51,317 nt of DNA from Endozoicomonas numazuensis. Lineage in GTDB: Bacteria > Pseudomonadota > Gammaproteobacteria > Pseudomonadales > Endozoicomonadaceae. Below the pieces are notes generated by a model that did not search any database, had not been told where the DNA came from, and saw only the letters and a list, made by a program, of their open reading frames with translations. The stretch covers positions 252,544 to 303,860 of the forward strand of contig NZ_JOKH01000002.1 in NCBI RefSeq assembly GCF_000722635.1. The letters are read 5' to 3'. The translations under genes and the position numbers were made by a program. This document shows, in pieces, positions 3,079-26,607 of this stretch; positions within the stretch are counted from its first letter, which is position 1, and every line of letters begins with the position of its first letter.

Positions 3079-3086
3079 AACTCACC

Positions 3087-4655: not shown

Positions 4656-4841
4656 ATGGCTAAATCCAAACGAAAACGCCCCGCTTCAGCAGTGCTGAAA
4701 CTTATGAGTATCCCCATGTTCAGGCAGCGTAAGGTGGAACTGAAAACCCGCTACAAGCGCAAGGACAAACACAACGGTAAGTCTGATTCCAGGCTGTACC
4801 AGAAAGCACTGAATGAGTCAGTGTTTTCTCGTGCGGCTTGA
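4656..4841 (+). CDS. arfA: ArfA-like alternative ribosome-rescue factor
   Basis: A 61-aa strongly basic protein resembling ArfA, which recruits RF2 to ribosomes stalled on mRNAs lacking a stop codon. The central segment PMFRQRKVELKTRYKRKDKH aligns well with the ArfA core (PLFRQRVEKNKKGKGSY and following lysines), preceded by a short helix. An excellent ribosome site AAGGAGAG sits 4 bases before the ATG. A nine-pair hairpin inside the reading frame (4804-4826) matches the known control of E. coli arfA, whose mRNA is cut or terminated within the frame so that the protein is made only when tmRNA fails. It overlaps the convergent recombinase by 24 bases. The family call is by motif only. Confidence 0.72.
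   Translation: MAKSKRKRPASAVLKLMSIPMFRQRKVELKTRYKRKDKHNGKSDSRLYQKALNESVFSRAA
4804..4826 (+). terminator. Hairpin within the arfA-like coding sequence
   Basis: Arms AAGCACTGA and TCAGTGTTT (one G-T pair) enclose loop ATGAG, and the 3' arm runs into TTTTC. It lies upstream of the arfA-like stop codon. Termination or RNase III cleavage here would give a non-stop mRNA, the substrate logic of ArfA autoregulation. It also spans the stop codon of the convergent recombinase. Confidence 0.6.
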
Positions 4842-9729: not shown

Positions 9730-12700
9730 ACAATTTCTTGTACAGCGCCTCACTAGCTGGCTAGAAAATCGTATTAGCGCCGGTACCCGCTACCAATTCC
9801 AGTCTCCTGATGCTGAAAATACAAAGCGGTTGTTTGATCAAATAAAGACCAATTTTTCCGGCTCAATCACATTTTTCTCAACGCCACTGCACTATATCGA
9901 AATCAATGGCGTAAAACTGATATGTGTTGTTCATGCTGAAAGTCGTGATGAGCTGAGTGACGGATTTAATGATAACTACATTTCTGCCGTGCGAGATGAA
10001 GTTGCAGGTCAATCTGGTGATTTCAGTAACAGTGCCTTGCTGATCATTCACAACAGTTTGCTGGATACATTGATAAACAGTGCTGATAATCTTGCTGCCG
10101 ATGGAATGCCATGGGCTACTGAAAGCATCAAGGTAGATCTTGAAAACATCATTCAAAACCAGCCTAAACCCAGTCGTGTATTACTGTGCCTGTTGCGTTG
10201 GCAAGCTGAAGTACTGGAGGATCTGGGCGGCAGCATGTTTGGTTATGAACAGTTGTTTAGTGCCATGTCAACTGGCAGTGAACCTGATCTCACCTCGCTT
10301 GGTCTTTTGCCTGATAGTGGCCTTACAGACATGAACAGCGACAAACAAATTGAGCAAAGACTAAAAGATAATAAAAAGTTGTTTGATGATATCTACAACA
10401 CAATCAGCAATCACCCTGAAGAAATAGCTGAGCGTCTGTCTGACTTTGGCGAAAAGTTCATTAAAGAGCAGTTCGATAATCAGGAAGATGATGCCTGGAG
10501 ACTAACTGATGTTCAGGTATTCTGGAATGAAGTTGAAGAGCAACGTAAGCAAGGTCTTGATTTTGCAGCAATTGACTCCGAAGGTTGTAAAGTTGTAGGC
10601 CCTCGTAATAAACGGGAAACTGCCGCTGGCAAGCGTGAAAAGCACCTCATTCTTGTTGCTGAGCCTGATGCTCAATACTTTGACCTTAAGCTGTCTTTCC
10701 ATGGTAAGGACCTGGAGAAAAAGCAAGTAAGCATCAGCAACAACAAAAGCTTGAAAAATCTGTCTAGCGAAATCATTCGCCTCACCTCAGGTGGTAGTAA
10801 GCGTTACTTGAAAATACTGGCTCCATTCAATGGCCAGCCAACCTACTTGACAGTAAAAACCAATCGGCCTCGTACTAAAGAGTGTTTTACTTTCCACATC
10901 CTGGTAGTAAAAAAAGGTGACTTCCTGCTGAGAGGTTTCGAAAACAACTTTCTGGTTAACCCTGGTAAGCAAAGTCTCACCTTACAGACCGAAGAGATGA
11001 GTTTGCGACTCAATGACCAGCAATCTAGCATCTTTTATCTTTCTGAAGAAAATTGTGAAGCTGATGTCAATGACTTTGGCTTTATTAATTATCAGACAGA
11101 ATATGAGAGCTCAGACGAAGTCGTATTCACTCTACGTAATGCCAATAGCTGCTTAAAATTCAACATAGTAGGCGAAGTCAACCATGAAGCTCTGAGTTTG
11201 CCGTTGCTGATGGATGAAGGCCGCTTTAACCTTCTCTTCAATGATCATTATTATGGGCAATTTAACTCTGCCAATGGCAAGGTGATCATCGATAACAAGG
11301 AAGCCCGGGTAATAGGCCGTCGATTATTGCTGTTACAGCGAGAAGAATCTTTCCTGGAACTGGATCAGGTTTCCCAGATAAAAGATGGGATAAATGCTAC
11401 TGAACTGAAAACCGTTGCCCCAGATATCTTCCACGCATGGAATACCTTGACCGCATATCTGAAGAGTCGCAACACCCTTCTCTCACTCGTATCATGGGGT
11501 CCAGTTGTAACGGAACTGGTTCGCGATTACGTTACCGCCTGCCTGAACTATCTTAACAATATACCGCTAAGTCGAAATATCAGCGATGCCGACCGAATGG
11601 TTCTAAAAGTTGGGGTCGCGCAGTATGAAGATCAGGAATACTTCACTCCCTATCATCCACTGATTCTTGGTTACTATCTCAATCTGGTCGATCAGATTCG
11701 CGCTGACGAGACGAATCGCTCATTCAAAAACCTACCGGATGTGACCCGCAAACGTCTGAACCCAAAAGGGTTACTCCCATACGTTTACTCAGAGTCAAGT
11801 AACTTCAGCTACACCCAGGTTACCGACGAAAATCCGTTCTGGTTGGAAATGGTTCCTCAGCAGGACACCAGTTACAGCTATGTCATCAAACTGGTGAAAG
11901 AAAAATCAGAAGAATTTATCAAGACCTTCAGCGAGCTGTTTAAACAGGTCGATGACGCACCTCTGATCATAAACTCAGTAAATAATCGTGACAATTGCGA
12001 GATATTTTTGGGGCTTCTTAGCTATTACCTGGAACATTTACTTCATGCTCGACACGTACATGTCAATTTGTACGATGATGAGCTCTGCGAAACAGAGTTT
12101 GACCGTTTTGCTGAGATGGGTGCTTACGATCAGATCAAACAAGAATATCAGTTGGATAAGGGTAAAGCCCGAGAGAAGGCTGATAGCATTATCGATCTGC
12201 TGCGTAGTCGGCTCTCTTTCTCAAAGTTCACTCACGATGAACATGATGAGCAACAATACGCACACCTAAGCTTTTTCAAAAATAACCAAAAGGTTCAGCG
12301 TATAAGTAGCAACATCGACGAACATGTATCTGGCGTTGCTGCATCCGGACTTTTAAACGGTGAGTCGTCACTGAGCGATAATCACAGTTACAAAACAGGC
12401 TTTGGCCTCAAGAACATAGATTCTGAAGGCAAACCGCACTTGCAGCTAGCAAGACTCTATGGCCGGCTACTGTATCCATGCAAAGAAGCGAATGAAGAAT
12501 ACTCTGAACGTTCTTCTATTGCTTTAGCGGTAAGGGATGAGTTTAAAGATCTGTTGGAGAAATCCTATGAAAGCTCCATCTGGACAACCATTATTGACCC
12601 AAAAGTCACCCTGGACTTTTTCCAGAATGAGCAAAATCTGGTACTGATTCATTACTCCGACCAGTACACCAATTCAGCAGGATATGACGCCATTACAGTT

Positions 12701-14839
12701 ACTCGGCAGACTGATTTATACAAACAGATTCTCAGTCAGCAGGGTGATGATTTAATCAGTGAGTTCAATGCCTTTAATGGCGAGTGGCTACTGAAGATGG
12801 TGACAGACCGCCCCACTGAGAAGAAAGCCAAGCTGGGCATTATTGGTGGTTGGAAATTGGTCAGCGCCATGCTGTCTGGTTCGGATATCACCTGGGTTCC
12901 AATTTCTATAGCTGAAATGGTGCGAGTGTCAGGCAATATTGGCCTGAAGATTTCCGATAGTGACTTTGCTCCCTTCCATAAAGGCGGGAAATTCAAGGGA
13001 ACAATGTCAGACGACATCCTCTTCGCTGGCTTTAAGGATGGTCAGCTTTATTTATTACCTGTCGAAGTTAAAACAGGTAATCATGGTAAAGACTCTCTGA
13101 ACAAGGCTAAGGAGCAGTGCGAAGCTCTTCAACGTTATCTGGTTGAAGGCTTGTTTGGACCCGATACTCTGGAAGGTCGCATATACCGAAGTCTGTTTAT
13201 CCGTCAGGTACTGATGCAGGTAGAAAAGTATCAGCTGTATGGAGTTTTTGACAAAGACTACTTCTCTGAGTTTCTATCAAACCGCGAGATGTGGCTCAGT
13301 GGTGACTACAAGCTGGGGCAATTACAAGACTATCCGGAAGCCATGGTTGTTGCCCATCTTGATGGAGAAGGGGTATACCAGACAGCAACAGAGTTGAAAG
13401 ACTCTGTACTTGAGTTGCAAATTCCTATTGGCTATCTGGATATGCTGGTTAATCAGCCTCTTAATACATTGCTGTCGAAACTGGTATGCGATAATCAACT
13501 AAATATTCCTGAGCAATGGTTTTTGAGCAAGGGGTTGGAGTCACAAACTTACGAGCCTGAAGCATCTGTAAATGCAGAATCAGAGAGTGACGATGATTCT
13601 GAAGATGTTGACAGTTTAGATACATTGGTGACAGTTCCTGATCGCCCAACTGCAATCAATAATCAGACAGCTCCTGCTGAAACACAAGAATTGAATCCAA
13701 ATGATGATGGGGCACTGAAAATCCAGTTTGGTTCAGACCATACAACAGGTCAGGCTGTACATTGGGAGCCCACAAATACAGAAAAGGTATTCAATCCGAA
13801 CACCGCCATCATTGGTACGATGGGCACAGGTAAGACTCAGTTTACCAAGAGTGTCATTACTCAGTTGGTGCGCAATCAGGATAATAATGTCGATGGGCAG
13901 CCTCTAGGCATTCTGATTCTGGATTACAAGGCTGACTATATGAAAGAGGATTTCATAAAAGCCACCAATGCTAAAACATTTAATCTGGAAAACTTGCCCT
14001 TTAATCCCTTGGCTTTATTTGGTGATAAACCACGCTTGCCAGTACATACAGCAAGTTTGTTCCGTTCAACTCTGGCTACGGCATTTGGTCTCGGAGCGAA
14101 ACAGCAGAACAAGATTCGCAACCTGGTGATGGATGCTTATCAGCGTTCTGGCATCAATGCTAATGACAAGAGTACCTGGTCACGCCCTGCTCCAACCATT
14201 CAGCAAGTCTGGGATGTATTCATGGAAGATGAAAAAGTTGAGCAGGATAAACTTTTTGCGGTAATGGATGAGTTGATCAGCTTCCAGATCTTCGACCCTG
14301 ATACCAACAACTGTCAATCACTATACGATATGGTTGATGGTGTTACTGTCATAAACCTGTCTGGATACGACCCGAATATTCAGAATCTTGTGGCAGGTAT
14401 TATCCTGGATATTTTCTACAACCAGATGCATCAACAGGGAAGTTCCAAGGTAGACGGGAAGTTTCGACAGCTCACCAAATTTGTTTTGGTGGATGAAGCC
14501 GACAATTTCATGCGACAAGACTTTACCAGTCTGCGCATGCTGATGAAGGAAGGCCGTGAGTTTGGTGTTGGCACTATCTTGTCTACTCAGGAAATGGATC
14601 ACTTCCGCACTAACGATAATGACTTCTCCAGCTATATCAACAGCTGGATTATTCACAAAGTGGCTAAGCTGAAGAAGCAGGATATTCAGACCATTTTCAA
14701 CACTAAAGGCAAGGATGAAGAAGAGCGGGTAATGAGCCAGATACTACAGCTTGAAAAGCACTATTCGCTGTATATTGGCGGATCGAATAGTGCCCGGAAG
14801 ATTAAGGACTTAGCATTTTGGGAGATTAAAGATAAATAA
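9710..14839 (+). CDS. dptH: DptH, HerA/FtsK-like ATPase with nuclease-like motif
   Basis: About 1709-aa protein of the DptH (DndH) family. The ATG at 9710 is preferred over a GTG at 9689 that gives seven extra residues. The C-terminal third is a HerA/FtsK-like ATPase: Walker A GTMGTGKT (K at about 1375), Walker B FVLVDEAD (D/E at 1595-1596) and a later STQEMDHF segment typical of HerA-type sensors. Before it, MSDDILFAGFKDG followed by LLPVEVKTG (E1119, K1121) has the spacing of a PD-(D/E)XK nuclease core, then a KAKEQCEALQRYL helix. An acidic serine-rich linker separates the two. This suggests the DNA-translocating, cleaving subunit of DptFGH. It overlaps dptG by 20 bases. Confidence 0.9.
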   Translation: MSVAPFEQFLVQRLTSWLENRISAGTRYQFQSPDAENTKRLFDQIKTNFSGSITFFSTPLHYIEINGVKLICVVHAESRDELSDGFNDNYISAVRDEVAGQSGDFSNSALLIIHNSLLDTLINSADNLAADGMPWATESIKVDLENIIQNQPKPSRVLLCLLRWQAEVLEDLGGSMFGYEQLFSAMSTGSEPDLTSLGLLPDSGLTDMNSDKQIEQRLKDNKKLFDDIYNTISNHPEEIAERLSDFGEKFIKEQFDNQEDDAWRLTDVQVFWNEVEEQRKQGLDFAAIDSEGCKVVGPRNKRETAAGKREKHLILVAEPDAQYFDLKLSFHGKDLEKKQVSISNNKSLKNLSSEIIRLTSGGSKRYLKILAPFNGQPTYLTVKTNRPRTKECFTFHILVVKKGDFLLRGFENNFLVNPGKQSLTLQTEEMSLRLNDQQSSIFYLSEENCEADVNDFGFINYQTEYESSDEVVFTLRNANSCLKFNIVGEVNHEALSLPLLMDEGRFNLLFNDHYYGQFNSANGKVIIDNKEARVIGRRLLLLQREESFLELDQVSQIKDGINATELKTVAPDIFHAWNTLTAYLKSRNTLLSLVSWGPVVTELVRDYVTACLNYLNNIPLSRNISDADRMVLKVGVAQYEDQEYFTPYHPLILGYYLNLVDQIRADETNRSFKNLPDVTRKRLNPKGLLPYVYSESSNFSYTQVTDENPFWLEMVPQQDTSYSYVIKLVKEKSEEFIKTFSELFKQVDDAPLIINSVNNRDNCEIFLGLLSYYLEHLLHARHVHVNLYDDELCETEFDRFAEMGAYDQIKQEYQLDKGKAREKADSIIDLLRSRLSFSKFTHDEHDEQQYAHLSFFKNNQKVQRISSNIDEHVSGVAASGLLNGESSLSDNHSYKTGFGLKNIDSEGKPHLQLARLYGRLLYPCKEANEEYSERSSIALAVRDEFKDLLEKSYESSIWTTIIDPKVTLDFFQNEQNLVLIHYSDQYTNSAGYDAITVTRQTDLYKQILSQQGDDLISEFNAFNGEWLLKMVTDRPTEKKAKLGIIGGWKLVSAMLSGSDITWVPISIAEMVRVSGNIGLKISDSDFAPFHKGGKFKGTMSDDILFAGFKDGQLYLLPVEVKTGNHGKDSLNKAKEQCEALQRYLVEGLFGPDTLEGRIYRSLFIRQVLMQVEKYQLYGVFDKDYFSEFLSNREMWLSGDYKLGQLQDYPEAMVVAHLDGEGVYQTATELKDSVLELQIPIGYLDMLVNQPLNTLLSKLVCDNQLNIPEQWFLSKGLESQTYEPEASVNAESESDDDSEDVDSLDTLVTVPDRPTAINNQTAPAETQELNPNDDGALKIQFGSDHTTGQAVHWEPTNTEKVFNPNTAIIGTMGTGKTQFTKSVITQLVRNQDNNVDGQPLGILILDYKADYMKEDFIKATNAKTFNLENLPFNPLALFGDKPRLPVHTASLFRSTLATAFGLGAKQQNKIRNLVMDAYQRSGINANDKSTWSRPAPTIQQVWDVFMEDEKVEQDKLFAVMDELISFQIFDPDTNNCQSLYDMVDGVTVINLSGYDPNIQNLVAGIILDIFYNQMHQQGSSKVDGKFRQLTKFVLVDEADNFMRQDFTSLRMLMKEGREFGVGTILSTQEMDHFRTNDNDFSSYINSWIIHKVAKLKKQDIQTIFNTKGKDEEERVMSQILQLEKHYSLYIGGSNSARKIKDLAFWEIKDK

Positions 14840-14937: not shown

Positions 14938-17043
14938 ATGACTTTAAAGCAAATAAACATTCTGGAAGAATATCGAACAGGTGAACAGGATCTTGTAGAA
15001 GGTTTCTATAAGCCCTGCCTTCGTGAGTCTTTTTTCTACGATCGAGCAGTAGGGTATTTTCGTTCGACAGTTTTCCTTTTGATTGGCCCCAGTTTAATCG
15101 ATTTTGCCAAGCGCGGCGGCACAATGCGATTAGTTTGTTCTCCGGAATTGACAAGCGAAGATTACGATGCAATAAGTACTGGCTACCAAAGTCGTGATGA
15201 TACTCTAGGAAGCGCTTTAAGCAGAGATTTCGAGTCATTAAAGAGCGATGAACGGCTACAAGCCAATACTGAAGCCTTAGCTACACTTATTGCGCTTGGA
15301 GTGATTAGCGTTAAAATTGCCTTTCGCCCAAAAGGACAAGGAATCTACCACGAAAAAATGGGAGTATTTAAAGACAAACAGGGGGATGTTGTTTGCTTCA
15401 AGGGTTCAGTAAACGAGTCTTGGAGCGGTTGGCACGAGTATGGTAACTACGAATCCTTCGATACCTACTGTTCGTGGGATGAAACCAAAGAAACCATCCG
15501 TGTTAAAAACAATGAACAGTATTTTGAGCGTTTGTGGAATAATGAATTAGAAACCGTGCAAGTGGTCGAGCTGCCTGATATCGCTCGCGAACAGATTGAG
15601 TTGGTTGCCAAAGAAAGCATCGATGACATTGATGTCGCAAAACTCTACGAAGTCCAGAATGCAGAGCTAGAACGTTTAACCTCAAACAAGCGAAAACCAC
15701 TACCACATCAACTGTCTGCAATTAACGGCTGGATAGCTCAAGGTTGCCGTGGCGTGCTCGAACATGCCACTGGCAGTGGCAAAACCTTTACTGCGCTTAC
15801 AGCAATGAAGCCCCATCTGGATGAAGGTGGAGTTGTACTAGTGCTAGTACCCGATCGCCTTCTCCACAAGCAGTGGGGTGACGAGATCCTCGAAGAATAT
15901 CCTAATGTCACCATTCTCAAAGCCGGTGATGGCCATGACCGTTGGCGTAAGAACCGTCGTCTTCGCAAGTTTACTCAACCTGGTAAGGACTTTGGGCCCA
16001 GAGTAGTTCTTGTTACTATGGCCACCGCAAGGCTGACGGAATTCTGTGATGGACTCTGCCAGGGGGTACATTTGATGGTAGTCGCCGATGAGGTACACGA
16101 AATAGGCAGTGCCGGAAATGCCAAGGCTATGACTATCCAGACAGGAATGCGACTAGGGCTCAGTGCTACTCCGCGACGCTTTGGTGACCCCGCAGGCACT
16201 GACAAAATTTTCGCTTACTTTGGTGAAGTGGTTAAACCTCCTTTTACATTGATCGATGCTATCAAGCAGGGTCGCTTGGTAGAATACGAATACCATCCGG
16301 AACCTATTCGCCTAACGGCGGAGGAATCCGAAGAATGGGAAGCAGCCACACGCGAAATATCATTAGAGTATGCCCGCTCAAAACGAGATGATAGCGGCTC
16401 ACCAGTGGTAAACCCGCGACTGCAGAATATGCTTATACAGCGATCTCGCATTGCTAAAAAGGCTTCTGCAAAAATTCCCTATGCAGTAAAAACTTTAGTT
16501 GATAACTACATCGAGGGGCAGAGCTGGCTTGTCTACTGCGAAGACCAACATCAACTAAGAGAAGTGATGGATGCTCTGCGCTCACACGGTCACGATCCTT
16601 GTGAGTACCATACAGGAATGAAAGGGGATGCAGCGGCTTCTCTCGAATGGTTCAAACGGTTCGGCGGAATCATGGTGTCGATACGTTGCCTCGACCAAGG
16701 TGTCGACATCCCCAAAATTTCACACGCAGTTATTCTTGCTTCTTCGCAAAACCCTCGGCAATTTATTCAACGTCGAGGCCGTGTGTTGAGAGTGTGCCCC
16801 GGTAAATACCATGCAGTTATTCATGATGCTGTTGTGGTGCCTGTATGTTTAGAGCAAGAACCAGGTCAATTATCACTACTTAAAAGTGAAATTCAAAGAA
16901 GTATTCAGTTTTCTAACACAGCAATGAATCGCTCAGGTTCTAATAAATTAATTAACATTGCCATTGAGCTGGGTATAGACCCCGAAGAAGTCGGACTATT
17001 TGATACGGATGGCATAGAAGAGGAAAGGACTGATGACAATTAA
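14938..17043 (+). CDS. PLD-nuclease/superfamily 2 helicase, Dnd-associated restriction enzyme
   Basis: 701-aa fusion of a phospholipase-D-type nuclease domain and a superfamily 2 helicase. The PLD motif is H138-E-K140 ... GSVNESW (N159). The helicase has ATGSGKT (K282), DEVH (384-387), GLSATPRR, CLDQGVDIP and QFIQRRGRVLR. It matches what I recall of a family annotated as DNA phosphorothioation system restriction enzyme in other Dnd loci. It begins a five-gene unit after a hairpin that follows dptH. A single HxK motif per chain suggests the nuclease works as a dimer. It probably tracks along DNA and cuts it; which DNA it targets is not shown by the sequence. Confidence 0.85.
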   Translation: MTLKQINILEEYRTGEQDLVEGFYKPCLRESFFYDRAVGYFRSTVFLLIGPSLIDFAKRGGTMRLVCSPELTSEDYDAISTGYQSRDDTLGSALSRDFESLKSDERLQANTEALATLIALGVISVKIAFRPKGQGIYHEKMGVFKDKQGDVVCFKGSVNESWSGWHEYGNYESFDTYCSWDETKETIRVKNNEQYFERLWNNELETVQVVELPDIAREQIELVAKESIDDIDVAKLYEVQNAELERLTSNKRKPLPHQLSAINGWIAQGCRGVLEHATGSGKTFTALTAMKPHLDEGGVVLVLVPDRLLHKQWGDEILEEYPNVTILKAGDGHDRWRKNRRLRKFTQPGKDFGPRVVLVTMATARLTEFCDGLCQGVHLMVVADEVHEIGSAGNAKAMTIQTGMRLGLSATPRRFGDPAGTDKIFAYFGEVVKPPFTLIDAIKQGRLVEYEYHPEPIRLTAEESEEWEAATREISLEYARSKRDDSGSPVVNPRLQNMLIQRSRIAKKASAKIPYAVKTLVDNYIEGQSWLVYCEDQHQLREVMDALRSHGHDPCEYHTGMKGDAAASLEWFKRFGGIMVSIRCLDQGVDIPKISHAVILASSQNPRQFIQRRGRVLRVCPGKYHAVIHDAVVVPVCLEQEPGQLSLLKSEIQRSIQFSNTAMNRSGSNKLINIAIELGIDPEEVGLFDTDGIEEERTDDN

Positions 17044-17233
17044 AAGTGATCCATTGGCGGTACTACTCGCAGTAAAATCTGAAATGAAGACAGAGCTTAG
17101 CGATGAGCTATTAAAGGCTTGCTATCAACTTCAGAGCGAACACCAGTACGACAAAGAGCGTACCACTATGAAAAAAATGCAAGCGTTGGTTGAAAAAGCA
17201 ATTGCAAGTGATGAAGAGGATGTGTCTTTATGA
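17033..17233 (+). CDS. Small Dnd-module-associated protein
   Basis: 66-aa acidic helical protein starting MTIKSDPLAVLLAVKSEMK. Its ATG overlaps the helicase stop by 11 bases and its end overlaps the next start by 4 bases, so it is embedded in the operon and very probably translated. It has no catalytic motif or membrane segment. Small proteins sit between helicase and SMC-like ATPase genes in several DNA-modification-linked systems, where they may bridge the larger subunits. I do not recognise a defined family and assign no function. Confidence 0.7.
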   Translation: MTIKSDPLAVLLAVKSEMKTELSDELLKACYQLQSEHQYDKERTTMKKMQALVEKAIASDEEDVSL

Positions 17234-19212
17234 AACTCAAGGAACTTACCGTCACCAACTTCATGCCCTATAAAGGTAAGCAAACAGTCTGCTTCCCTCA
17301 GCACGACACACAGAATGTCATGCTACTGTTCGGTGACAATATGCGAGGGAAAACCAGCTTTCTCAATGCGATGCGTTGGGGTTTCTATGGAGTAGCCCTG
17401 GGAAGGCATCTTCGCTCTATTCCTCGACTTAACATGATAAATATCGAGGCTGCTACGGATGGCAATTGGAATATGTCGGTTGTACTCAAATTCTCCGATG
17501 GTGGTAAAAGCTACGAAATTCGTAGACTCATAGAGAAAAAGAATCATGTATCTCAACCCAAGGTAGATGCAGATTTTGAAGAAACTGTTTGGTTGAACAT
17601 CGATGGTGAACGCCAGCCTGGAGATACAGTAGAGAATCAAATTAACCAGATTGTTCCCGAAGAAATATCTCGCTTCTTCCTGTTCGACGGAGAGTTATTA
17701 CAGGAGTATGAAAACCTTCTAATTGAAGGTGATGCTCAAGGGGAAAAGATAAAAGAGCATATTGAACAAGCGCTAGGAGTTCCTGCGTTAATTCATGGTC
17801 GTGATGAATTCAATAGCCTGTTAAAAGATGCTCGAAGGATACAAGCTAGAGACGCCAAAAAAAATACTGAGCTCAAACGCTACGCTGAGCAACAGACTCA
17901 ACTCGAAATAAAACTGACCTCAATCGAAAATGATCTCAAAGATCTTGAAGCTGAGCGAGTCGATATCGAGAAAAAAATTGATGATATTGACGATGAGCTA
18001 AAAAATACTGAAGGTGTTCAACGGAAAAAAGTAGAGCTCGAGGGCCTATCTGCCGAGCGTAAAGCCATTGAACGCCAGCTAGTTGACCTATCTAATGAGC
18101 AGCGTGAGTTACTGAAAACTGCATGGTTGGATGTACTACACAGCAATATGTCTCCACTACTCGAAACCATAAAGCGGCGCCGAGATAGTCTGCAGACGTT
18201 GGTCGAGACCAAGACAAAGCTCAGCACCCAAATAAACATGCTACAGAAAAGCATCGACAACCCCTCTTGTGTTACTTGTAATCAGGTTATCCCTGATGAA
18301 AAGATTCAGCCTATTCGTGACCAGATTGCTAGCCTTCGGGCTGAAGAAGAACTCGCTGTTTACAACCCTGAAGAAATCCGTCAACTCAATAGCAAAATCG
18401 ATAAGCTGTCTGTCATTCGTTCGGCCAATGAGGGACTTCGCCTGCAACAGAACGAAGACAAACAACGACAGTTAGATGTTCGTCTTATTCGGGTTGAAAC
18501 AAAATGGGACGAGTTGCAGGAGGAAATCCGGGAATTCGACACTGATCAAATCATCCGTCAGCGCGATAAACGCGATCAATATAAGGCGCTGCTAGCCCGT
18601 CTTAATGTCGACATTACCAATGCTAAGTTAGCTCGCGATAAAAATATTAAAGAGCAGGATCACATCGCCACACTAATCTCCAAAAGCGCAGGTGGTCAGG
18701 GGCAAAAAAGTTCAATACGAGTCAACATGTATCAAGATCTGGAGTCAATCTTTACAAAAGGCATTGATCAGCTGCGAGATGGATTACGTGGTGATGTAGA
18801 GCAGTACTCATCCGCAGCCTTTGCCGAACTCACTACCGAAAAGAGCTACAGAGGCCTACAAATCAATCACAACTACGGCCTTTCTATCGTCGATCAAGCA
18901 GGGCGTGTGCTCAAAGAGCGTAGCGCTGGTGCAGAGCAAGTAGTAGCGCTATCTTTGATTGACGGTCTCAACCGTACCGCCCGAAAGTCCGGACCTATCG
19001 TAATGGACACTCCTCTGGGTCGACTCGACCCCAAGCACCGCAGCAATGTCTTGAAGTATCTACCTAAGATGGCTGATCAAGTGGTTCTGTTAGTACACGA
19101 TGGTGAAATTGACCCTGACAAAGATATACAGAACTTTGCTGATCGTATTGGTGCCCGATACCAAATTCAGCGCATTTCTGCAACTGAGTCACGTATTGTA
19201 AAGAGTAATTGA
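17230..19212 (+). CDS. Rad50/DndD-like SMC-family ATPase with zinc hook
   Basis: 660-aa ABC/SMC-type ATPase. The P-loop is GDNMRGKT (residues 35-42), the coiled coils span roughly residues 180-550, and a CVTC zinc hook lies at residues 347-350. The signature region is SAGAEQVVALSLIDGLNR and Walker B is IVMDTPLGRLD (D593). The C-terminal DTPLGRLDPKHR followed by DQVVLLVHDGEID closely parallels the DndD encoded at 22926-24887, which has DTPLGRLDSKHR and HQVILLSTDQEID. It is therefore a DndD-type paralogue inside the effector unit. The canonical DndD here shows no CxxC hook. Such proteins tether or bend DNA and gate nucleases. The call as ATPase is firm; its partner role is inferred. Confidence 0.88.
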   Translation: MKLKELTVTNFMPYKGKQTVCFPQHDTQNVMLLFGDNMRGKTSFLNAMRWGFYGVALGRHLRSIPRLNMINIEAATDGNWNMSVVLKFSDGGKSYEIRRLIEKKNHVSQPKVDADFEETVWLNIDGERQPGDTVENQINQIVPEEISRFFLFDGELLQEYENLLIEGDAQGEKIKEHIEQALGVPALIHGRDEFNSLLKDARRIQARDAKKNTELKRYAEQQTQLEIKLTSIENDLKDLEAERVDIEKKIDDIDDELKNTEGVQRKKVELEGLSAERKAIERQLVDLSNEQRELLKTAWLDVLHSNMSPLLETIKRRRDSLQTLVETKTKLSTQINMLQKSIDNPSCVTCNQVIPDEKIQPIRDQIASLRAEEELAVYNPEEIRQLNSKIDKLSVIRSANEGLRLQQNEDKQRQLDVRLIRVETKWDELQEEIREFDTDQIIRQRDKRDQYKALLARLNVDITNAKLARDKNIKEQDHIATLISKSAGGQGQKSSIRVNMYQDLESIFTKGIDQLRDGLRGDVEQYSSAAFAELTTEKSYRGLQINHNYGLSIVDQAGRVLKERSAGAEQVVALSLIDGLNRTARKSGPIVMDTPLGRLDPKHRSNVLKYLPKMADQVVLLVHDGEIDPDKDIQNFADRIGARYQIQRISATESRIVKSN

Positions 19213-19213
19213 A

Positions 19214-19594
19214 ATGAATGAACCAAGCCGGATAGGACTGACATCAGCAACAGGTGCACAACTTGATGAGCTACTTGAAGACCTCAACCCTGACTCAGGT
19301 GACGAGGGAGTCAAGCTCATCAAATTTGATCTTTACCGCCTAGCCGTGGCTCTCCGCCTTAAAGCCAATACCCCACCTCCACCATTACCAGAGAAAAGCG
19401 TTACTAATCTGCGAGTAAAGGAGCTGGACCCAGATGGTTTACTATTTCTGGCAGCCGAAAACTCTAACCTATTACCTGCAGGCACGCCGATCTATGAGTT
19501 TATTGAACAATTGGCTGAGGCTGGAATCTCAGATTTTTATCGTGATTTTCAACAAACCGGCCAGCTGCCATTCAATCAATACTTCGGCGAGTAA
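19214..19594 (+). CDS. Small Dnd-associated protein
   Basis: 126-aa protein starting one base after the ATPase stop. It has an N-terminal helical part (ATGAQLDELLEDLN, then KFDLYRLAVALRLK), a proline-rich turn (TPPPPLPEK) and a C-terminal part (FIEQLAEAGISDFYRDF). The overall pattern resembles small proteins annotated as Dnd-system-associated protein 4, and the first half is faintly reminiscent of the DndE DNA-binding fold. Both are weak impressions. Tight packing between the SMC-like ATPase and the large HTH protein argues that it is a subunit of the same complex. Confidence 0.65.
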   Translation: MNEPSRIGLTSATGAQLDELLEDLNPDSGDEGVKLIKFDLYRLAVALRLKANTPPPPLPEKSVTNLRVKELDPDGLLFLAAENSNLLPAGTPIYEFIEQLAEAGISDFYRDFQQTGQLPFNQYFGE

Positions 19595-19603
19595 TCAAAA
19601 AGA

Positions 19604-22444
19604 ATGGCAGCACTAAAACTTTACTTTGCTCTAATTAATGAAGACTCTTCATTAGAGGTCAGCGTTCATCGCAATCTATCGACCCTGCGTGAAGCCTGGC
19701 AGCAGACTGTTCAGGCGGATTGTGTGGGCATCATTCACATTGGTTTCATTCGTCCGAAAATAAAGAATGCAACTGCCCTGCTTAAGCAGCGTGGAAAGCT
19801 TCTATTGAGCGCGTCAGCTAAATGGGCTCTACCAGACGCTTATCTCAGTTCAGTGGCGGTCATTGCAGAACTTAAGCTAGCAAGCCAGATATTACCGCTA
19901 TATCAACTATTACAGGGATTCGGCTGTGATGCCGTTGAGCCACAAGCGAATTTTCATGCTACTGCACAATTGTGCGAACAGTCACATCCTAAAAACGACT
20001 GCTCTCTCACCATTGCTGAAGCCGCTCGCCAGGTACTTAATCAGGCCATCCAACCACTGAATAAAGAGGAGATCTTCGCACGTATCGTTGAGCAAGATCT
20101 CTATCGTTTTGGTACCAAAAAACCAGTCAGCGCATTATCAGAACAGTTAAATCTCTACACACGCAATACCAGCGACAGTAATGCTGACGCTGACCCTCTG
20201 TTTATCAAGACAGAAGGTGATCGTTTCTGCTCACTGGATCATGTGTCTTCTGAGCTTAGCGGTTGGGTTAAGCATCTAGCCGAAAATTTACCTGAACTGG
20301 CTGCTGCCGCTAATCCCTTTGGTCTTACTGACGAAAAGAGCTATTCCAAACTAGCCGACCATTTGCCAGCCAGATTGCGCGACCAGCTTGATGCGTATCG
20401 ATTCAGCCAACTAATAGATACCGTGGATCAGCTAGCCCCTCAGGAGCTGCTCAATATACTGCCGTACAGTCTATTGTCAACTAACATTAGTTCGATCAAT
20501 ATGTCGGTTAGAGTATTCAATGTACTCAAGGCACACGACATTGCACATCTAGCCGACTTAAAGAGCTACTCAGTAGCAAAAATGCTAATGTGGAATAATT
20601 TTGGCCGAAAATCAGTAAGTGACCTATGCAGAGCTATGATCGATGCTGCTGAAAAAGTCGCCGCCCAGATGCTAAATGGTAAGTACAATAGCTTAGAAGT
20701 CGACAATGATGGGATTAGTGATACCGACGAGCTGAAAGATGCTGAAATTGAGCACGATGAAGCTTATCGGATGACTCTAGTCTCCAATACACCACTAAAA
20801 TCACATTTCGAAAAGGCATTAGCCGGATTACGTGACAACCACAGACAAGTCATCGAGTGCCGAACAGGCTATCATGGCACAACAATGACACTAGAAGAGG
20901 TTGGCAAACTAATTGGGGTCACACGGGAACGTATCCGCCAAATTCAAAAAAAATACGTCGATAGAATCATCAGTACTGAATTTTGGGACAACTGTATTGC
21001 CATCAAAATCGGACAACTTCTAATCAATCGAGAAACACCGCTGTATATTGAGATGCTGGAGGTCGAAGACCCTTGGTTTGAAGGTTTCATAGGTAACTAC
21101 CAGCATTTAGCAGCTATTATCGAATTATTTTCTGAAAACGAGATCCGTATCGTTAAAATTAATGGGGCAAGCCTGGTCACTCGTATCAAGCTTGATGACT
21201 GGGAACAGTGCATCAGCCACTTCCGAAAAAGCCTCAAAGATAAAGCTACCGAAGGCAGCTGGACCCGTCAGGATATTGATACGACTTTTAGAGCAAGTCT
21301 TTCTGAGAAAGGAGCGCCAGAACTAGTACCACTGATGTGGGATGAATTTGAAAACGCCCTTCAGTTTGAAGGGGAAGGTGAAGATGCTAAATTGCTATCG
21401 TTTGGAGTTAGTGCAGATTCTGTTATACAAGCTGTGCTGCTTCAAGCTGAATCTCCACTGCATTTTACTGAAGTTGCAGCACGGGCAACCAAATTACTAG
21501 GTAAGCCCGTCGATGAGCGCCGCGCACAAAATTCATTGATGAGCCAAGGCGCAAAACTCTATGGGCGTGGTATCTATGGACTCGAGAAGTTCAATCCTAT
21601 TTCTCCACGCATGTGCAGTAATATCCGGCTGGCTGTTTGCAATATCCTTTATGAAGGACCACTAATGAAGCAATGGCATGCCAATGAAATACTTGGAATG
21701 TTGCAAGCCAAATTCCCAAGTCTACCCGAAGAGTTGGATAACTATATTCTTAATATCATCTTGCAGGAGGCTGACCGGTTGGTCTATTTAAATCGTATGG
21801 TCTGGGCTCGTGTTGACTCTAAGCAGGATGTTAATGACCGTGTAGATATGGCTGACGCCTTCACCCAAATCCTTGAAGAGCATGGCGGCCCTTTGAAAGG
21901 CAAAGAGATAAAAGATCGGTTAGCGGCCATTCGCGGCGTATCCAATAAACTTCAACTGCAACCTACCGAACGAATGATCCAAATCGGTCCCGATTTCTGG
22001 GGTTTGGTTGAGCGAGATATTGGTGGAACCCCTGAAGGAAATGCTGAAAAACTTAACAACCTGTATCAGAAACTGCAAGAGCGACAAAAGGGTATACATG
22101 TTTCAGAAGTGTGGCAGTATGTAAGTGTAAGCGATAGCTCTAGAGAGCACCCGTCACCTTATGCCTTATTGAATCTTGCACAACGTGACTCTCGATTCTA
22201 TTTAGGGCGTGCAATGTACTTGGGCCTATCAGAATGGGGTGATGATACAAGGCGCCTAAATATTGCGCAGGCTGTAAGAAAACTATTTAAAAAGGCATCA
22301 TCACCAATGACAATAGCTGCAATAAATGCAGAGATAGAGGATTTAATCGAAATGCCTGTTGATGGATCAGTTACTAATACCCTTATTAATTCAGGGGCAA
22401 CATTCGATTCAGCGAGTAAACGTTGGCATTTTCCAAAAAACTAA
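19604..22444 (+). CDS. Multi-HTH protein with HARE, alpha-CTD-like and sigma region 4-like domains
   Basis: 946-aa protein ending the five-gene unit. From the sequence: a HARE-type winged helix at about residues 133-205 (LTIAEAARQVLNQAIQPLNK, DLYRFGTKKP); an alpha-CTD-like helix-hairpin-helix at about 297-345 (MSVRVFNVLKAHDI and WNNFGRKSVSDL, close to LTVRSANCLKAEAI and NLGKKSLTEI of RpoA); and a sigma region 4-like HTH at about 405-455 (TLEEVGKLIGVTRERIRQIQ). At least three further winged-helix-like repeats lie near 608-665, 746-805 and 882-944. No enzymatic motif is seen. It looks like a DNA-reading scaffold. HARE-HTH domains have been proposed to recognise modified DNA. The combination may sense phosphorothioates or promoters; this is inference. 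Confidence 0.78.
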   Translation: MAALKLYFALINEDSSLEVSVHRNLSTLREAWQQTVQADCVGIIHIGFIRPKIKNATALLKQRGKLLLSASAKWALPDAYLSSVAVIAELKLASQILPLYQLLQGFGCDAVEPQANFHATAQLCEQSHPKNDCSLTIAEAARQVLNQAIQPLNKEEIFARIVEQDLYRFGTKKPVSALSEQLNLYTRNTSDSNADADPLFIKTEGDRFCSLDHVSSELSGWVKHLAENLPELAAAANPFGLTDEKSYSKLADHLPARLRDQLDAYRFSQLIDTVDQLAPQELLNILPYSLLSTNISSINMSVRVFNVLKAHDIAHLADLKSYSVAKMLMWNNFGRKSVSDLCRAMIDAAEKVAAQMLNGKYNSLEVDNDGISDTDELKDAEIEHDEAYRMTLVSNTPLKSHFEKALAGLRDNHRQVIECRTGYHGTTMTLEEVGKLIGVTRERIRQIQKKYVDRIISTEFWDNCIAIKIGQLLINRETPLYIEMLEVEDPWFEGFIGNYQHLAAIIELFSENEIRIVKINGASLVTRIKLDDWEQCISHFRKSLKDKATEGSWTRQDIDTTFRASLSEKGAPELVPLMWDEFENALQFEGEGEDAKLLSFGVSADSVIQAVLLQAESPLHFTEVAARATKLLGKPVDERRAQNSLMSQGAKLYGRGIYGLEKFNPISPRMCSNIRLAVCNILYEGPLMKQWHANEILGMLQAKFPSLPEELDNYILNIILQEADRLVYLNRMVWARVDSKQDVNDRVDMADAFTQILEEHGGPLKGKEIKDRLAAIRGVSNKLQLQPTERMIQIGPDFWGLVERDIGGTPEGNAEKLNNLYQKLQERQKGIHVSEVWQYVSVSDSSREHPSPYALLNLAQRDSRFYLGRAMYLGLSEWGDDTRRLNIAQAVRKLFKKASSPMTIAAINAEIEDLIEMPVDGSVTNTLINSGATFDSASKRWHFPKN

Positions 22445-22560: not shown

Positions 22561-22914
22561 CTAGCTGTAATCACTCATTAACGGAGTGATATTAATATCG
22601 TTAAGTAAAAAAGAAATTCCACGATTTAAGTGAAGCTTTAGACACAACATGAGATCGTCAGTTCCGTCTATGACAGATCGCTCTTTCAACAAAGCTGCAT
22701 AAATATCACTATATTGTCCGCCAAACACCTTCCACGTCATCTCAACAGAACTGTCAGAAGGAATGTCCTCATAAGGAGGAACAGATGGTTCAGCCAATGA
22801 AGTACAAAAAGCCCACCGACAGAGCGTATTCCAGTTTTCAATCCCTGTTCGCTTTTTCAGCTGAAGCAGCTGCTGTTTACCCTTTTCAGAAAGGCGGATA
22901 TTTTCAATTGTCAT
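22561..22914 (-). CDS. dndE: DndE, phosphorothioation protein
   Basis: 117-aa DndE. The family hallmark is plain: IRLSEKGKQQLLQLKKRTG followed by WNTLCRWAFCTSLAEPS. DndE proteins are small, positively charged and bind nicked DNA as part of the DndCDE sulfur-insertion complex. The last ~45 residues (GISFLLNDINITPLMSDYS) match the usual DndE tail region. It is the last gene of dndBCDE, starting 11 bases after the dndD stop with a GGAG site. No defect is visible. Confidence 0.93.
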   Translation of the reverse strand: MTIENIRLSEKGKQQLLQLKKRTGIENWNTLCRWAFCTSLAEPSVPPYEDIPSDSSVEMTWKVFGGQYSDIYAALLKERSVIDGTDDLMLCLKLHLNRGISFLLNDINITPLMSDYS

Positions 22915-22925
22915 AATTTAACTCC

Positions 22926-24887
22926 TTAAAAATACCCTTCTTTGATAACAGACGACTTAATATCTTCCTGATACTCAATCTTGTACTTGGCAGAGATATA
23001 AGGCTCCAGCCCTTTGCAATATTGCTGGTCAATTTCCTGATCAGTAGAGAGCAGAATTACCTGATGACTGGCATTAGGGAAGTAATTCTCAATCAGATGA
23101 TTACGGTGCTTGCTATCCAGACGACCAAGAGGCGTGTCGATAATAGCAGGCAAAGGGCGACCCGAAGCCTTTGCTAAACCCCATAAAATTGAGATAGCCA
23201 ACAGCTGACGCTCGCCTGCGGAGAGACGGGAAGGCTTGATTGGATGTTGATCCTTGCCCAGCAAGGTCAACTTGAATGTATCAGTATCAATATCGATTTT
23301 ATCAATCAGATCGTCTTTACGAATCAAAGACTGGAAGCTTTCCAGAATTTTCTGCTCCAGACGGCTGATATCTTCGTTAATCAACAATGATCTGAATTCA
23401 GTCAGTACATCTCTGACATTATCGGCCTGCTCAAGCACCTTAAGCTGACGTTCAATATCAAAGCCTTTATCAGCAGAGTCTGTCAGCTTTTTGCTGATCT
23501 GAGCATCTTGATGATTAATCGCTTCCTCTCTCTCCTGAACCTGCTGTGTCACAAGGTTCAGCTCGATATTCAGCTTTTCGACTGCTGTTTTAGACTCTTC
23601 TATTCGGTGCTGAATTCCAGCAATAATATGTTGTGCCGGAACAGCACCTAACTTACCACTTATCTGCCCTATTTTTTCCCGAAACTCATCATATCCTTGT
23701 TTGAGTTCTTTTCCTTGCGACTGCACACTACTGAAAAACTCATCGTTTAAATCAGAAAACGCTTCAGGAGAAACATTTAGATAAATTTTTTCAGGTATCT
23801 GCTTCAAGCGATCAGACTCATCTTTTTCCACAAACTGGCGTGCAGAGGCAATAGCTTCCTGACCAGCACCGGCAGCTTCAAGCAGCTGAAGGAGCTTGGA
23901 GTCTCTGACGGATAAAGATTCAACCACTGCCTTGGCAACAGCGCCCTCTTCTTCCTTAATAGCCTGCTCTTTGGCTTTGTAGATGAGATCTTTTACCAAT
24001 AAAAGAGGTGCGGCGCCTTCCGCATGTTTACGCATCTCTTTTTTGTGCTTCTCAAACTCTTTTTCAACGGCATTCTGTTCTTCTTCAAGAGCTTTCTTTA
24101 GCTTATATAGCTCGCCACCTTCACGACGAAAATCAAGCCATGCTTCATTTAATTCGCCCTCGGCTTGCTTCAGCTTCTCTTTCAATAGAGTTCTTTGCTC
24201 ATTGAGAGGCAGGAGCTCTTTTTTAAGCTCTTTTTTCCGAGTCTCCAGCTGTTGGATCTGAGCTTGAACCTCAGCAGTCTGCTGCTTAATTTTCCTTCGG
24301 TTCTTAAGAGCATTCAGATCACGAGACAAGTTATCAACCACGTCCAAGCCCAGCAGGGCATGGATACCGGTTTTAATCAAACCTGCGGATTTACGGGCAT
24401 CGGCAAGGCTTTCAATTTTTTCACCGTCAAAGAAAAACAGCCCGGAAATATTAGATGGTATGAACTCATTGACATATTCATCCCATTGCTCGGAAAGCAA
24501 TGGCTCCTCAACTCCATTTTTACATACCAGTAAATTTTCTTTGACACTTTTGCCACGAACAGACCAGGAGCGTTTAACCTGATAACGATCTCTCTTTCCC
24601 TCATTATGGTGATAGAAAAAGAGTTCCAACATGGCACTTTTGTGACGGGAATGTCGGTTGATCGTTTCTTTCAGGTAATCTTCATACGCCATACGTCCTC
24701 GATTAGACGTTTTGGCGTGTTTGCCATAGAGAACCAGCTGCAAGGCATCAAGTAGCGTGGTTTTACCGCCACCGTTCAGACCACCGATCAGGATGATATT
24801 CTTCTCCCCTCTTGGGGTGAAGAATATGGAGTGGTCGCTGCCTTTGTATATGCCAAAGTTCTCAATATTCAGTTCATCAAGCAACAT
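22926..24887 (-). CDS. dndD: DndD, SMC-like ATPase of the phosphorothioation complex
   Basis: 653-aa DndD. The P-loop is GLNGGGKT (residues 36-43), long coiled coils fill residues ~180-500, the signature region is LSAGERQLLAISILWGLAK and Walker B is AIIDTPLGRLDSKHR. DndD supplies ATPase activity and is thought to expose or bend DNA for sulfur insertion by DndC. Its start overlaps the dndC stop by 11 bases. No CxxC zinc hook is apparent, in contrast to its paralogue at 17230-19212. Length and architecture match the family. Confidence 0.94.
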   Translation of the reverse strand: MLLDELNIENFGIYKGSDHSIFFTPRGEKNIILIGGLNGGGKTTLLDALQLVLYGKHAKTSNRGRMAYEDYLKETINRHSRHKSAMLELFFYHHNEGKRDRYQVKRSWSVRGKSVKENLLVCKNGVEEPLLSEQWDEYVNEFIPSNISGLFFFDGEKIESLADARKSAGLIKTGIHALLGLDVVDNLSRDLNALKNRRKIKQQTAEVQAQIQQLETRKKELKKELLPLNEQRTLLKEKLKQAEGELNEAWLDFRREGGELYKLKKALEEEQNAVEKEFEKHKKEMRKHAEGAAPLLLVKDLIYKAKEQAIKEEEGAVAKAVVESLSVRDSKLLQLLEAAGAGQEAIASARQFVEKDESDRLKQIPEKIYLNVSPEAFSDLNDEFFSSVQSQGKELKQGYDEFREKIGQISGKLGAVPAQHIIAGIQHRIEESKTAVEKLNIELNLVTQQVQEREEAINHQDAQISKKLTDSADKGFDIERQLKVLEQADNVRDVLTEFRSLLINEDISRLEQKILESFQSLIRKDDLIDKIDIDTDTFKLTLLGKDQHPIKPSRLSAGERQLLAISILWGLAKASGRPLPAIIDTPLGRLDSKHRNHLIENYFPNASHQVILLSTDQEIDQQYCKGLEPYISAKYKIEYQEDIKSSVIKEGYF

Positions 24888-26607
24888 GATCTACAGTATT
24901 TCCATCCTGAGCAGTGGTCTGTGGTGTGATGATATGTACCAGATCAACATCTTCTTCAAGGGACAGTACATCCTTAAGCTGGTCTCTCGCTATCTGTAGA
25001 CGCTGCTCAGTTTCTTTAATCTCTTTATCTTTTTTCTTCCGGAGCTCAACTTTACCGGAAAGGTGTTTGACTTCTTCCATCAGAGTATCGAGTTTTATTT
25101 CCGTACTCTTGATCTCTTTGCGAAGACGGTAAGTCAGAGCTTCTGTCTCATTCGCAAAAGAATATTTCTCAATGGCTCGCTCCAAAGTGTCATAAAGCTT
25201 GGCACGTCGAATCATGGTTTTATTCTGGAGCTCGATATGCAACAGTTCACGAGTCTGCTTATAGAGAAGGATTGGGTCTATTTCACTGTCTGGATTTTTC
25301 TTCACATACAGTTCACAGGCACGTTTCAGCAGAAGCATTTCTTCGGCACCAAAAGACAAACCTTCGGTCAATTGAATGCCAGGATACGGCTCACCCATCA
25401 CTTCTTGATACAAGCCTGGCAGAGCATCTTCTATCTCATGTTTTTCCATGACCCAGATGCGTCGAATGGCTTCCATATCGTCGTCGTTGAGCAGCTTCAT
25501 GGAACGAACTTCTTCAGGGCCGTTTTCCTGAATAGCCAGTTGAGCTCTTAACACAGCTTTGAACAGTTCGTGTCGATGTTCTTCAGTGTAAGGACCATAA
25601 ACCAACTTGGCTTCGCCATAGCGGGTATTGATATGAAGGGTTGTGCGACCATCCATGCGACGCCAGTCTCTGCGAGAACGATCGACCTCATAATTGGTAT
25701 GATCGAGGTAATCATCTCGCAATTCCAGTAGAGGAGCCATCCAGATTTTTTCATCATCATTATGGATCATGGCGTGCAGGGATTTATCCTGGCCAACCAA
25801 GGTGCAAACATAGCAACCAAAGCGGCTGTCACCACAGCTTGGCGTGGTTGTATCTACCACCAGAGGGCATTCATTATCTTCTGTAGCACCCTGATACATC
25901 GTCTGGAGCTGGAAGTTCTCAACACCCCAGGGATTTCTGATCTGGTTCAGGTAAACCCAAACATCATCATTACTCCATTCACCAATCGGGGTGAACTTCC
26001 AGACACGATCCAGAGTTTGGTCTGCCACTAAACCTTCACGAGTATTGCGTTCATGCTCTTCTGCTTCACGCATGTTGGCAGAACGCGTTGTACTCTCAAG
26101 CTTGCGGGTACCAAGCACCAAAATCGCTTCGCCATTTTGCTTAACCGTATCTTTGATAAATGTTTCGGAAGGCTTAATCTTCAAACGATCAGTACACCAG
26201 CGAAATTTTGGCCGAGGTGCCGGATAGCCCTTACCAATCACATTTACCCAGAAACGGTTTTCTACTGCTGGTGTCAGGCGATGTGCCTGAATAGGTAAGT
26301 CTTGCGCTTCTGCAGACTGGTTAATTTTTGCCAGAGAAGCTTCTACCCACAGAGCAACCACAGGGTTTTCTACCAGTGTATCGGTGCTGATGACATGCAC
26401 TGGTTTGATATGCTTCTCTTTGGGCAGATCAGCAAGAGCCAGCCATACCAACTGCAACACGGCGGTAGAGTCTTTACCACCGCTATAACCCACAACCCAG
26501 GGGATTTCATCGCTTAAGTAAAGTTCCTGCGTTTTTTTCAGGACTTCATCGATGGTTTGTTTGAAGCCTTGCGCTTTAAAAGCAGACTTTCGTGCATTAC
26601 TTGACAT
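24877..26607 (-). CDS. dndC: DndC, phosphorothioation sulfurtransferase
   Basis: 576-aa DndC of the PAPS-reductase/ATP-pyrophosphatase superfamily. The PP-loop is YSGGKDS (residues 41-47 from the ATG at 26607). RPKFRWCTDRLKI and the cysteine cluster CGDSRFGCYVC with an upstream CPLVVDTTTPSC fit the iron-sulfur ligands of the family. DndC activates the DNA backbone and inserts sulfur delivered by DndA. The open frame runs to 26646, but MSSNARKSAF at 26607 has GAGG five bases upstream and an 11-base overlap with dndB, so it is preferred. The C-terminal coiled segment (residues ~480-560) is typical. Confidence 0.95.
   Translation of the reverse strand: MSSNARKSAFKAQGFKQTIDEVLKKTQELYLSDEIPWVVGYSGGKDSTAVLQLVWLALADLPKEKHIKPVHVISTDTLVENPVVALWVEASLAKINQSAEAQDLPIQAHRLTPAVENRFWVNVIGKGYPAPRPKFRWCTDRLKIKPSETFIKDTVKQNGEAILVLGTRKLESTTRSANMREAEEHERNTREGLVADQTLDRVWKFTPIGEWSNDDVWVYLNQIRNPWGVENFQLQTMYQGATEDNECPLVVDTTTPSCGDSRFGCYVCTLVGQDKSLHAMIHNDDEKIWMAPLLELRDDYLDHTNYEVDRSRRDWRRMDGRTTLHINTRYGEAKLVYGPYTEEHRHELFKAVLRAQLAIQENGPEEVRSMKLLNDDDMEAIRRIWVMEKHEIEDALPGLYQEVMGEPYPGIQLTEGLSFGAEEMLLLKRACELYVKKNPDSEIDPILLYKQTRELLHIELQNKTMIRRAKLYDTLERAIEKYSFANETEALTYRLRKEIKSTEIKLDTLMEEVKHLSGKVELRKKKDKEIKETEQRLQIARDQLKDVLSLEEDVDLVHIITPQTTAQDGNTVDHVA

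Follow-up and report, generated by a model that had tools for sequence, protein, structure and literature searches.

PbeABCD, for phosphorothioate-blocked DNA exclusion, belongs to the CxC-ATPase-anchored systems of Rakesh et al. (PMC10853773), who reassigned PbeB to a small protein and PbeD to the cognate of DndE. Protection from a virus by Pbe requires phosphorothioate (PT) production in the host, and a PT-marked virus escapes (PMC6459918). The discoverers of Pbe saw no DNA cleavage (PMC6459918), whereas later authors argued for cleavage (PMC10853773). Xiong et al. described 25 dndCD clusters in bacteria with both pbeAC and dndFGH close by (PMC6459918). Here we describe a five-gene unit carried by a stretch of 51,317 nucleotides (the window) from Endozoicomonas numazuensis (contig NZ_JOKH01000002.1, positions 252,544 to 303,860), which lies between dptFGH and dndBCDE. 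Four of its five genes correspond to PbeABCD, and it is therefore no new system; the fifth, which we call P5, encodes a large protein predicted to bind DNA. What is new is that one subclade of Pbe has a fifth component, which is conserved, PbeABCD and the combination of pbe with dndFGH and dnd being known already. No description of this gene as part of Pbe was found among the listings and passages that text searches of an open-licence library returned, and the text portions of PMC6459918 and PMC10853773 do not mention such a gene; figures and supplements of these key papers were outside the scope of this search.

The unit consists of five open reading frames (ORFs), all on the + strand (14938..22444 of the window; Table 1), and matches once in the 6.34 Mb genome. 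pbeA and pbeB overlap by 11 bases and pbeB and pbeC by 4, and gaps of 1 and 9 bases separate pbeC from pbeD and pbeD from P5. An earlier description of the window, made from its letters alone (the sequence-only reading), had placed five tightly packed genes at these positions, which the ORF coordinates bear out. Pfam agrees with the domain types that it assigned (a phospholipase D (PLD) domain with a superfamily 2 (SF2) helicase, a Rad50/DndD-like ATPase and an RNA-polymerase-type DNA-binding protein), and family scans confirm dptFGH upstream and dndBCDE downstream. Its statement that no complete system could be named for the unit did not survive, since PbeABCD, one of the comparators that it named, accounts for four of the genes, pbeD through its position and family.

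As the family scans show, three of the genes encode predicted members of Pbe families (pbeA, pbeB and pbeC), and the fourth occupies the place of pbeD. The PADLOC and NCBIfam scans of the five proteins were read as the best 25 matches per protein (for P5 in NCBIfam, the best 25 of 39). In PbeA, Pfam finds ResIII, Helicase_C and a weak PLDc_2 domain (20.7 bits, the Pfam cut-off being 27). Residues H138, K140, D146, N159 and E172 are invariant across the four PbeA proteins compared, the window protein carries Walker A, DEVH and QRRGRVL motifs, and a PDB sequence search with it matched XPB-type and RecQ helicases. In two related loci (L033 and L034) the PLD motif retains the H and the K and not the D. 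The likeness of the helicase to Dnd restriction enzymes, pointed out in the sequence-only reading, holds in part: PbeA does match TIGR04095 (dnd_restrict_1), but at 306 bits, below the curated cut-off of 600, so that it is a divergent member at best.

PbeB falls in the Pfam family Sp-DndD, a small protein found in some Dnd systems, and gave no match among those listed for PADLOC and NCBIfam. PbeC scored at most 184 bits with DndD models among the PADLOC matches listed, against 1075 with PbeC, and Walker A, signature and Walker B patterns were all found in the window protein. A CxxC lies in the middle region of all 24 PbeC proteins examined; with strict motif patterns there was no Walker A match in L046 and no Walker B match in L043, L046 and L047. 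The 126-aa PbeD had no match in Pfam or among those listed for PADLOC and NCBIfam, and a PDB sequence search with it returned nothing significant. Its profile matched DndE weakly (hhalign probability 38% over 48 columns) and the TIGR04062-type PbeD more weakly still (18.7%), and its membership of PbeD therefore rests on position and on conservation of the family.

Set against the described PbeABCD, the unit shares the A-B-C-D order, a PbeA with PLD and helicase parts, a DndD-like PbeC, a small protein in the place of PbeD and adjacent dnd genes, and its PbeB has 66 aa, as in Haloterrigena jeotgali (PMC6459918). It differs in the presence of P5 after pbeD, in a PbeD of 126 aa instead of 152, and in the CxxC of the ATPase, where a CxC hook was described (PMC10853773). 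No Ssp-named model, for SspE or SspFGH, was among the PADLOC and NCBIfam matches listed, the Ssp content of these libraries being unchecked. With DndFGH/DptFGH the unit shares the locus and the tie to dnd, and pbeA begins only 98 bases after dptH, as would suit a unit that was part of DptFGH. None of the PADLOC and NCBIfam matches listed for the five proteins, however, is to DptF, DptG or DptH, and DptF was absent from the matches in all 23 other genomes with the unit (7/7 and 16/16, many of them metagenome-assembled genomes (MAGs); the window genome served as positive control in the 7-genome search only). The unit therefore does not depend on DptFGH and we reject it as a part of that module, from which the sequence-only reading had rightly kept it apart. 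That it should be unrelated to Pbe, or belong to DptFGH after all, is hardly credible beside the PADLOC matches of PbeA and PbeC.

Next we surveyed Pbe loci in other genomes. A collection of 84,980 species genomes scanned with a PbeA alignment (two short motifs) yielded 58 loci; because such a scan detects just those PbeA with one of the two motifs, the survey is incomplete. With nine more from plasmids and viral contigs (two of the nine being one contig), 67 Pbe loci were read, comprising 21 of the close clade readable through pbeD, seven of the close clade cut by contig ends before P5, and 39 distant ones, some of them short. One of the seven cut loci (L080) shares its MAG with L076, and the two may be halves of a single locus. 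P5 directly follows pbeD in all 21 readable close-clade loci, and, counted from the stop of pbeD, it starts at -4 to +10 bases in 19 of the 20 loci measured. When a P5 profile was run over the 6643 ORFs of the 67 loci, it matched elsewhere only in two of the 39 distant loci, on plasmids of Ruegeria and Pontibrevibacter (L026 and L027). There a diverged homologue (hhalign 99%), annotated as a 'Sigma factor-like HTH' (helix-turn-helix) protein, lies beside dndBCDE and directly before pbeA, whose start it overlaps. Unlike P5 of the window, these homologues thus precede pbeA; they have 1026 and 1017 aa, and the PbeD of Ruegeria is a TIGR04062 protein. The two loci, among seven read of 26 plasmid records with PbeA, were chosen for the neighbouring sigma-like annotation, so 2/39 is not a rate.

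Searches were also started from P5. A whole-P5 search of 95 genomes matched other genomes, among the matches listed, just around the sigma-like region (about residues 324-491), as sigma factors would, and for that reason the later searches used the C-terminal part. Run over 369 (class), 398 (phylum) and 391 (order) genomes, in overlapping draws, they returned five genomes other than the window's own: four with five genes, of which three were new (L101, L107 and L108) and one (L109) was the already known L052, and one with a stand-alone P5-like gene (L102). The total is 25 five-gene loci (21, these three and the window). In the 24 others pbeA, pbeC, pbeD and P5 stand in the same order, and pbeB was detected in 23 (not in L048); the unit is conserved elsewhere, and such recurrence makes it more than chance. 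The first relative found was an Aurantiacibacter plasmid with the order methyltransferase-pbeA-B-C-D-P5, its P5 interrupted by an IS3 element. Units with P5 span Pseudomonadota, Thermodesulfobacteriota and a Verrucomicrobia MAG. Some members are incomplete: the N-terminal domain of P5 is missing in L046, the C-terminus of P5 is short in L047, the PbeC and methyltransferase ORFs are split in L038, P5 is split by an insertion sequence in L022, and PbeA is cut by a contig end in L076. P5 as a single-protein query in the genome scan gave no match; PbeC at E 1e-40 found only the window genome in the 398-genome phylum sample; blastn of pbeA and P5 against E. coli genomes and tblastn of P5 against phages gave no match; and scans of viral contigs with the PbeC and PbeA alignments found one contig, which ends inside pbeC.

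The pairwise distances of PbeA, PbeC and P5 across 21 loci (without L022, L038, L046 and L076, whose genes are incomplete or split) correlate at 0.96-0.975, and none of 2000 permutations reached as high a value for any pair. This supports joint inheritance and does not separate possible roles of P5. In terms of gene content, the survey shows well that this clade of Pbe has P5 as its conserved fifth partner.

In the stand-alone case (L102, 9723-11426) the P5-like protein has 567 aa with sigma region 4 and winged-helix/HARE matches; it is flanked on one side by a gene for a giant fibronectin-type protein and on the other by an AurF-like gene and then HslVU-like genes.

Which modification genes accompany the unit? 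Seven of the 25 five-gene loci are linked to dnd (the window, L033, L034, L052, L076, L107 and L108). A methyltransferase related to P0012 (PF01555) is present in 17 of the 18 others; the remaining locus, L036, has no P0012-like gene in the locus DNA and no dndC in its genome, and other types of methyltransferase are possible there. A genome-wide search of 22 genomes or records (those of L101, L107 and L108 were left out) found dndC above the cut-off in five, exactly the five dnd-linked ones in the set. The Aurantiacibacter plasmid gave a weak dndC match of a kind that controls also give. As the neighbouring gene families show, the unit adjoins either dnd or a putative DNA methyltransferase. 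In the neighbourhood survey that the sequence-only reading had proposed, the five genes co-occur both with dnd (7 loci) and without adjoining dnd (18 loci). The name 'Dnd-linked' proved too narrow, 17 of the 25 loci lying beside a methyltransferase instead, while the tie to DNA modification stands; the novelty claimed for the unit shrinks to the fifth gene, since the other four are known Pbe genes and pbeAC with dndFGH had been published.

The slot between P5 and dndE, which in the window measures 116 bases between two convergent genes, holds variable genes in the six other dnd-linked loci (L033 17495-20874, L034 17488-19795, L052 8195-11297, L076 7111-9421, L107 3449-5997 and L108 3678-5655). 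It contains an ion-channel protein in L052, L076 and L107 (with a weak ParB_N match before it in L076), a DndB-like protein in L033 and L108, and a HATPase with a putative methyltransferase in L034. The region resembles a slot for cargo, perhaps for additional effectors.

P5 itself is rich in predicted DNA-binding folds, among them a domain like the C-terminal domain of the RNA-polymerase alpha subunit (alpha-CTD; Table 1), and no enzyme domain was found in it by Pfam, PADLOC or NCBIfam (best 25 of 39 for the last). Units 1, 3 and 5 of its C-terminal region are mutually alike (hhalign 94.7-97.4%, reversed controls at most 7.9%); we rejected the idea that all five winged helices there are repeats, units 2 and 4 not being established as such. 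A PDB sequence search with the C-terminus gave nothing significant. No sigma-70 region 2 was matched in Pfam at E 0.1, region 4 being matched alone, and P5 was accordingly rejected as a true sigma factor.

In known proteins, alpha-CTD and sigma region 4 touch RNA polymerase or promoter DNA. Both stem from promoter recognition by RNA polymerase, and P5 might use them to bind the promoter or the polymerase as transcriptional regulator of the operon, setting the level of the defence genes. MzaA, annotated as a sigma factor of the MZA defence system, likewise carries a sigma-70 region 4 stretch and shares this region with P5. That match, however, covers about 106 residues at 55 bits, the cut-off being 800, region 2 gave no match in P5, and the P5 gene comes last in the unit, coding for a large multi-HTH protein retained across all the lineages named above; a regulator is conceivable, and we think it unlikely. 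The combination of sigma region 4 with alpha-CTD would also suit a sensor of transcription: P5 would bind to RNA polymerase or to promoters in use, and so direct the nuclease to DNA that a phage is expressing. Yet both folds may be plain DNA binders, as in PglW of BREX type 2, in which an alpha-CTD-like domain has been described ahead of several winged helices (PMC12839542), and we consider a sensor distinctly improbable. PglW differs from P5 in having a kinase and other domains, none of which P5 shows.

The feature of P5 that follows the modification genes is its N-terminal HARE-HTH insert (residues 127-212), present in all seven dnd-linked P5 proteins and in none of the 18 others by alignment and domain scans. 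L101, L107 and L108 were obtained after this pattern had been noticed, and all three fit it. A search with the HARE-HTH/Mrr nuclease encoded in the window matched the P5 insert in four of the six other dnd-linked genomes and nothing in the six methyltransferase-linked genomes tested (6 of 18). Scanned as whole rows, 16 of 21 P5 proteins have HARE matches at E 0.1; in six of the 16 non-dnd rows, scanned singly, HARE was absent (2) or short, below the cut-off and in the C-terminal half (4). The P5 of L034 has two HARE stretches, the better one C-terminal, and its N-terminal insert was identified by the second stretch together with the alignment and the nuclease search. HARE domains fused to nucleases have been proposed to discriminate modified DNA (Rakesh et al., PMC10853773), and we infer that the HARE-HTH of P5 reads PT.

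Taken together, we find it somewhat probable that the unit is a five-gene variant of PbeABCD with P5 as its DNA-reading subunit, fitted to PT by the HARE domain. P5 would hold DNA through its many HTH and winged-helix domains and read a sequence or a mark, PbeC and PbeD would scan the DNA with its help, and P5 would pass the modification state on to PbeA, the putative helicase and PLD nuclease, which would translocate and then cut or block the invading DNA. In the dnd-linked branch, the N-terminal HARE would fit the reader to PT-marked DNA. A bolder version, which we hold only tentatively, makes P5 an exchangeable mark reader in an immune system of two formats: PbeABCD, as the one nuclease machine, would work with methyl-marked DNA in most relatives within the clade, and one branch would have been re-coded to PT by insertion of a HARE-HTH akin to the one in the Mrr nuclease linked to PT.

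Several observations weigh against a DNA-reading P5 fitted to PT by HARE. Archaeal Pbe, tested without P5, works (PMC6459918), 37 of the 39 distant Pbe loci have no P5 in the available DNA, and no Pbe was detected in the 15 kb of DNA covered around the stand-alone P5-like gene of L102. These same facts are what would be expected if the locus were a plain PbeABCD with an unrelated passenger gene of no role in defence. We regard a passenger as very unlikely, because P5 holds the same position in 21 of 21 close loci, diverges together with PbeA and PbeC, and is represented on two plasmids by a diverged homologue that lies at the opposite end of pbe. Correlated distances are, for their part, also expected from joint transfer alone, and close pairs among the 25 (e.g. 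L044/L049, L040/L041, L037/L039 and L107/L108) make the independent loci fewer than 25. In the Geobacter MAG with L037 (G488), another contig (L103 6357-10135) carries dndD, a partial dndC below the cut-off and a partial pbeA. As to HARE, the dnd-linked loci form one clade (100/100 in each of three unrooted trees), so that its link with dnd is a single event and could be coincidence; the unrooted trees give the change no direction, loss of HARE in the methyltransferase branch being allowed equally with gain in the dnd branch. The 18 loci counted as free of the insert include L046, where the N-terminal region of P5 is missing altogether. Finally, the diverged P5 of Ruegeria (P0014) is dnd-linked and had no HARE match in the domain scan, so a PT-linked Pbe does not always require HARE.

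Table 1. Features of the five-gene unit and neighbouring genes (positions in the window; functions are predicted)
Feature	Position	Strand	Basis
pbeA, PLD-type nuclease fused to SF2 helicase, 701 aa	14938..17043	+	PADLOC PbeA 1.1e-218, residues 3-669
PLD (HKD-like) motif of PbeA, HEKMGVFKD	15349..15375	+	motif residues invariant in four PbeA
pbeB, small protein, 66 aa	17033..17233	+	Pfam Sp-DndD PF20306 2.2e-12
pbeC, Rad50/DndD-like ABC ATPase, 660 aa	17230..19212	+	PADLOC PbeC 1075 bits; AAA_23
CxxC (CVTC), presumed coiled-coil apex of PbeC	18268..18279	+	pattern search
pbeD, 126 aa, DndE-cognate by position	19214..19594	+	homologous family across 21 rows
P5 (fifth gene), 946-aa multi-domain DNA-binding protein (predicted)	19604..22444	+	RNA_pol_A_CTD, Sigma70_r4, HARE-HTH (Pfam)
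P5 N-terminal domain, residues 1-116	19604..19951	+	no library match; in 20/21 rows, missing in L046
P5 N-terminal HARE-HTH insert, residues 127-212	19982..20239	+	HARE-HTH 2.3e-10 for whole protein; best stretch 136-209
P5 RNA-polymerase alpha-CTD-like domain, residues 290-341	20471..20626	+	Pfam 1.5e-11; 21/21 rows E<=0.1
P5 sigma-70 region 4-like domain, residues 405-452	20816..20959	+	Pfam 1.6e-11; 21/21 rows E<=0.1
P5 C-terminal winged-helix/HARE-like region, residues 598-946, at least 3 related units	21395..22441	+	hhalign
dptF, dptG, dptH (separate neighbouring module)	6785..14839	+	517, 293, 1338 bits
dndE	22561..22914	-	PF08870 8.8e-35
dndD	22926..24887	-	AAA_23 and SMC_N domains; place within dndBCDE
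dndC	24877..26646	-	PAPS reductase domain; TIGR03183 614 bits
dndB	26597..27718	-	PF14072 1.1e-130
dndA-type cysteine desulfurase (putative)	27832..28959	+	Aminotran_5 2.3e-74; function from family and position
HARE-HTH and Mrr nuclease	28960..29772	+	HARE like P5 insert: 36% identity over 76 aa, hhalign 99.1%

The gene for the HARE-HTH/Mrr nuclease abuts the dndA-type gene with zero bases between them. Full-length matches occurred in two of the 13 genomes searched, namely the window genome and that of Shewanella benthica, in which the relative (43%) lies about 10 kb beyond P5. In our view this nuclease and DndI are proteins of different kinds. DndI has been described as an NTPase and nickase (PMC11662687).

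No promoter-like site was found on the + strand near the start of pbeA. Between 14600 and 22700 there were 7 promoter-like sites, against a mean of 12.8 in shuffled sequence, and 6 terminator-like ones, against 7.0. Mobile-element genes flank the defence island on the left (940-5834; a CbbQ-type AAA protein, a YqaJ exonuclease, RecT and an integrase) and on the right (43199-49070; a NusG-like protein, TraH and TraG). The arrangement resembles an integrative conjugative element of the SXT/R391 type, of which the island would be cargo. The gene for a QueH-like protein (34957-35751, - strand) adjoins another (35877-39149, - strand) whose 1090-aa product has an origin-binding-protein/helicase match.

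P5 bears on how Pbe halts viruses and how it senses PT. A predicted DNA-reading fifth subunit that stands beside methylation genes in some loci and PT genes in others offers a natural comparison, and the HARE insert is a target in the search for the part that reads the mark. If P5 were indeed an exchangeable reader, its HARE-HTH would be the reader of PT.

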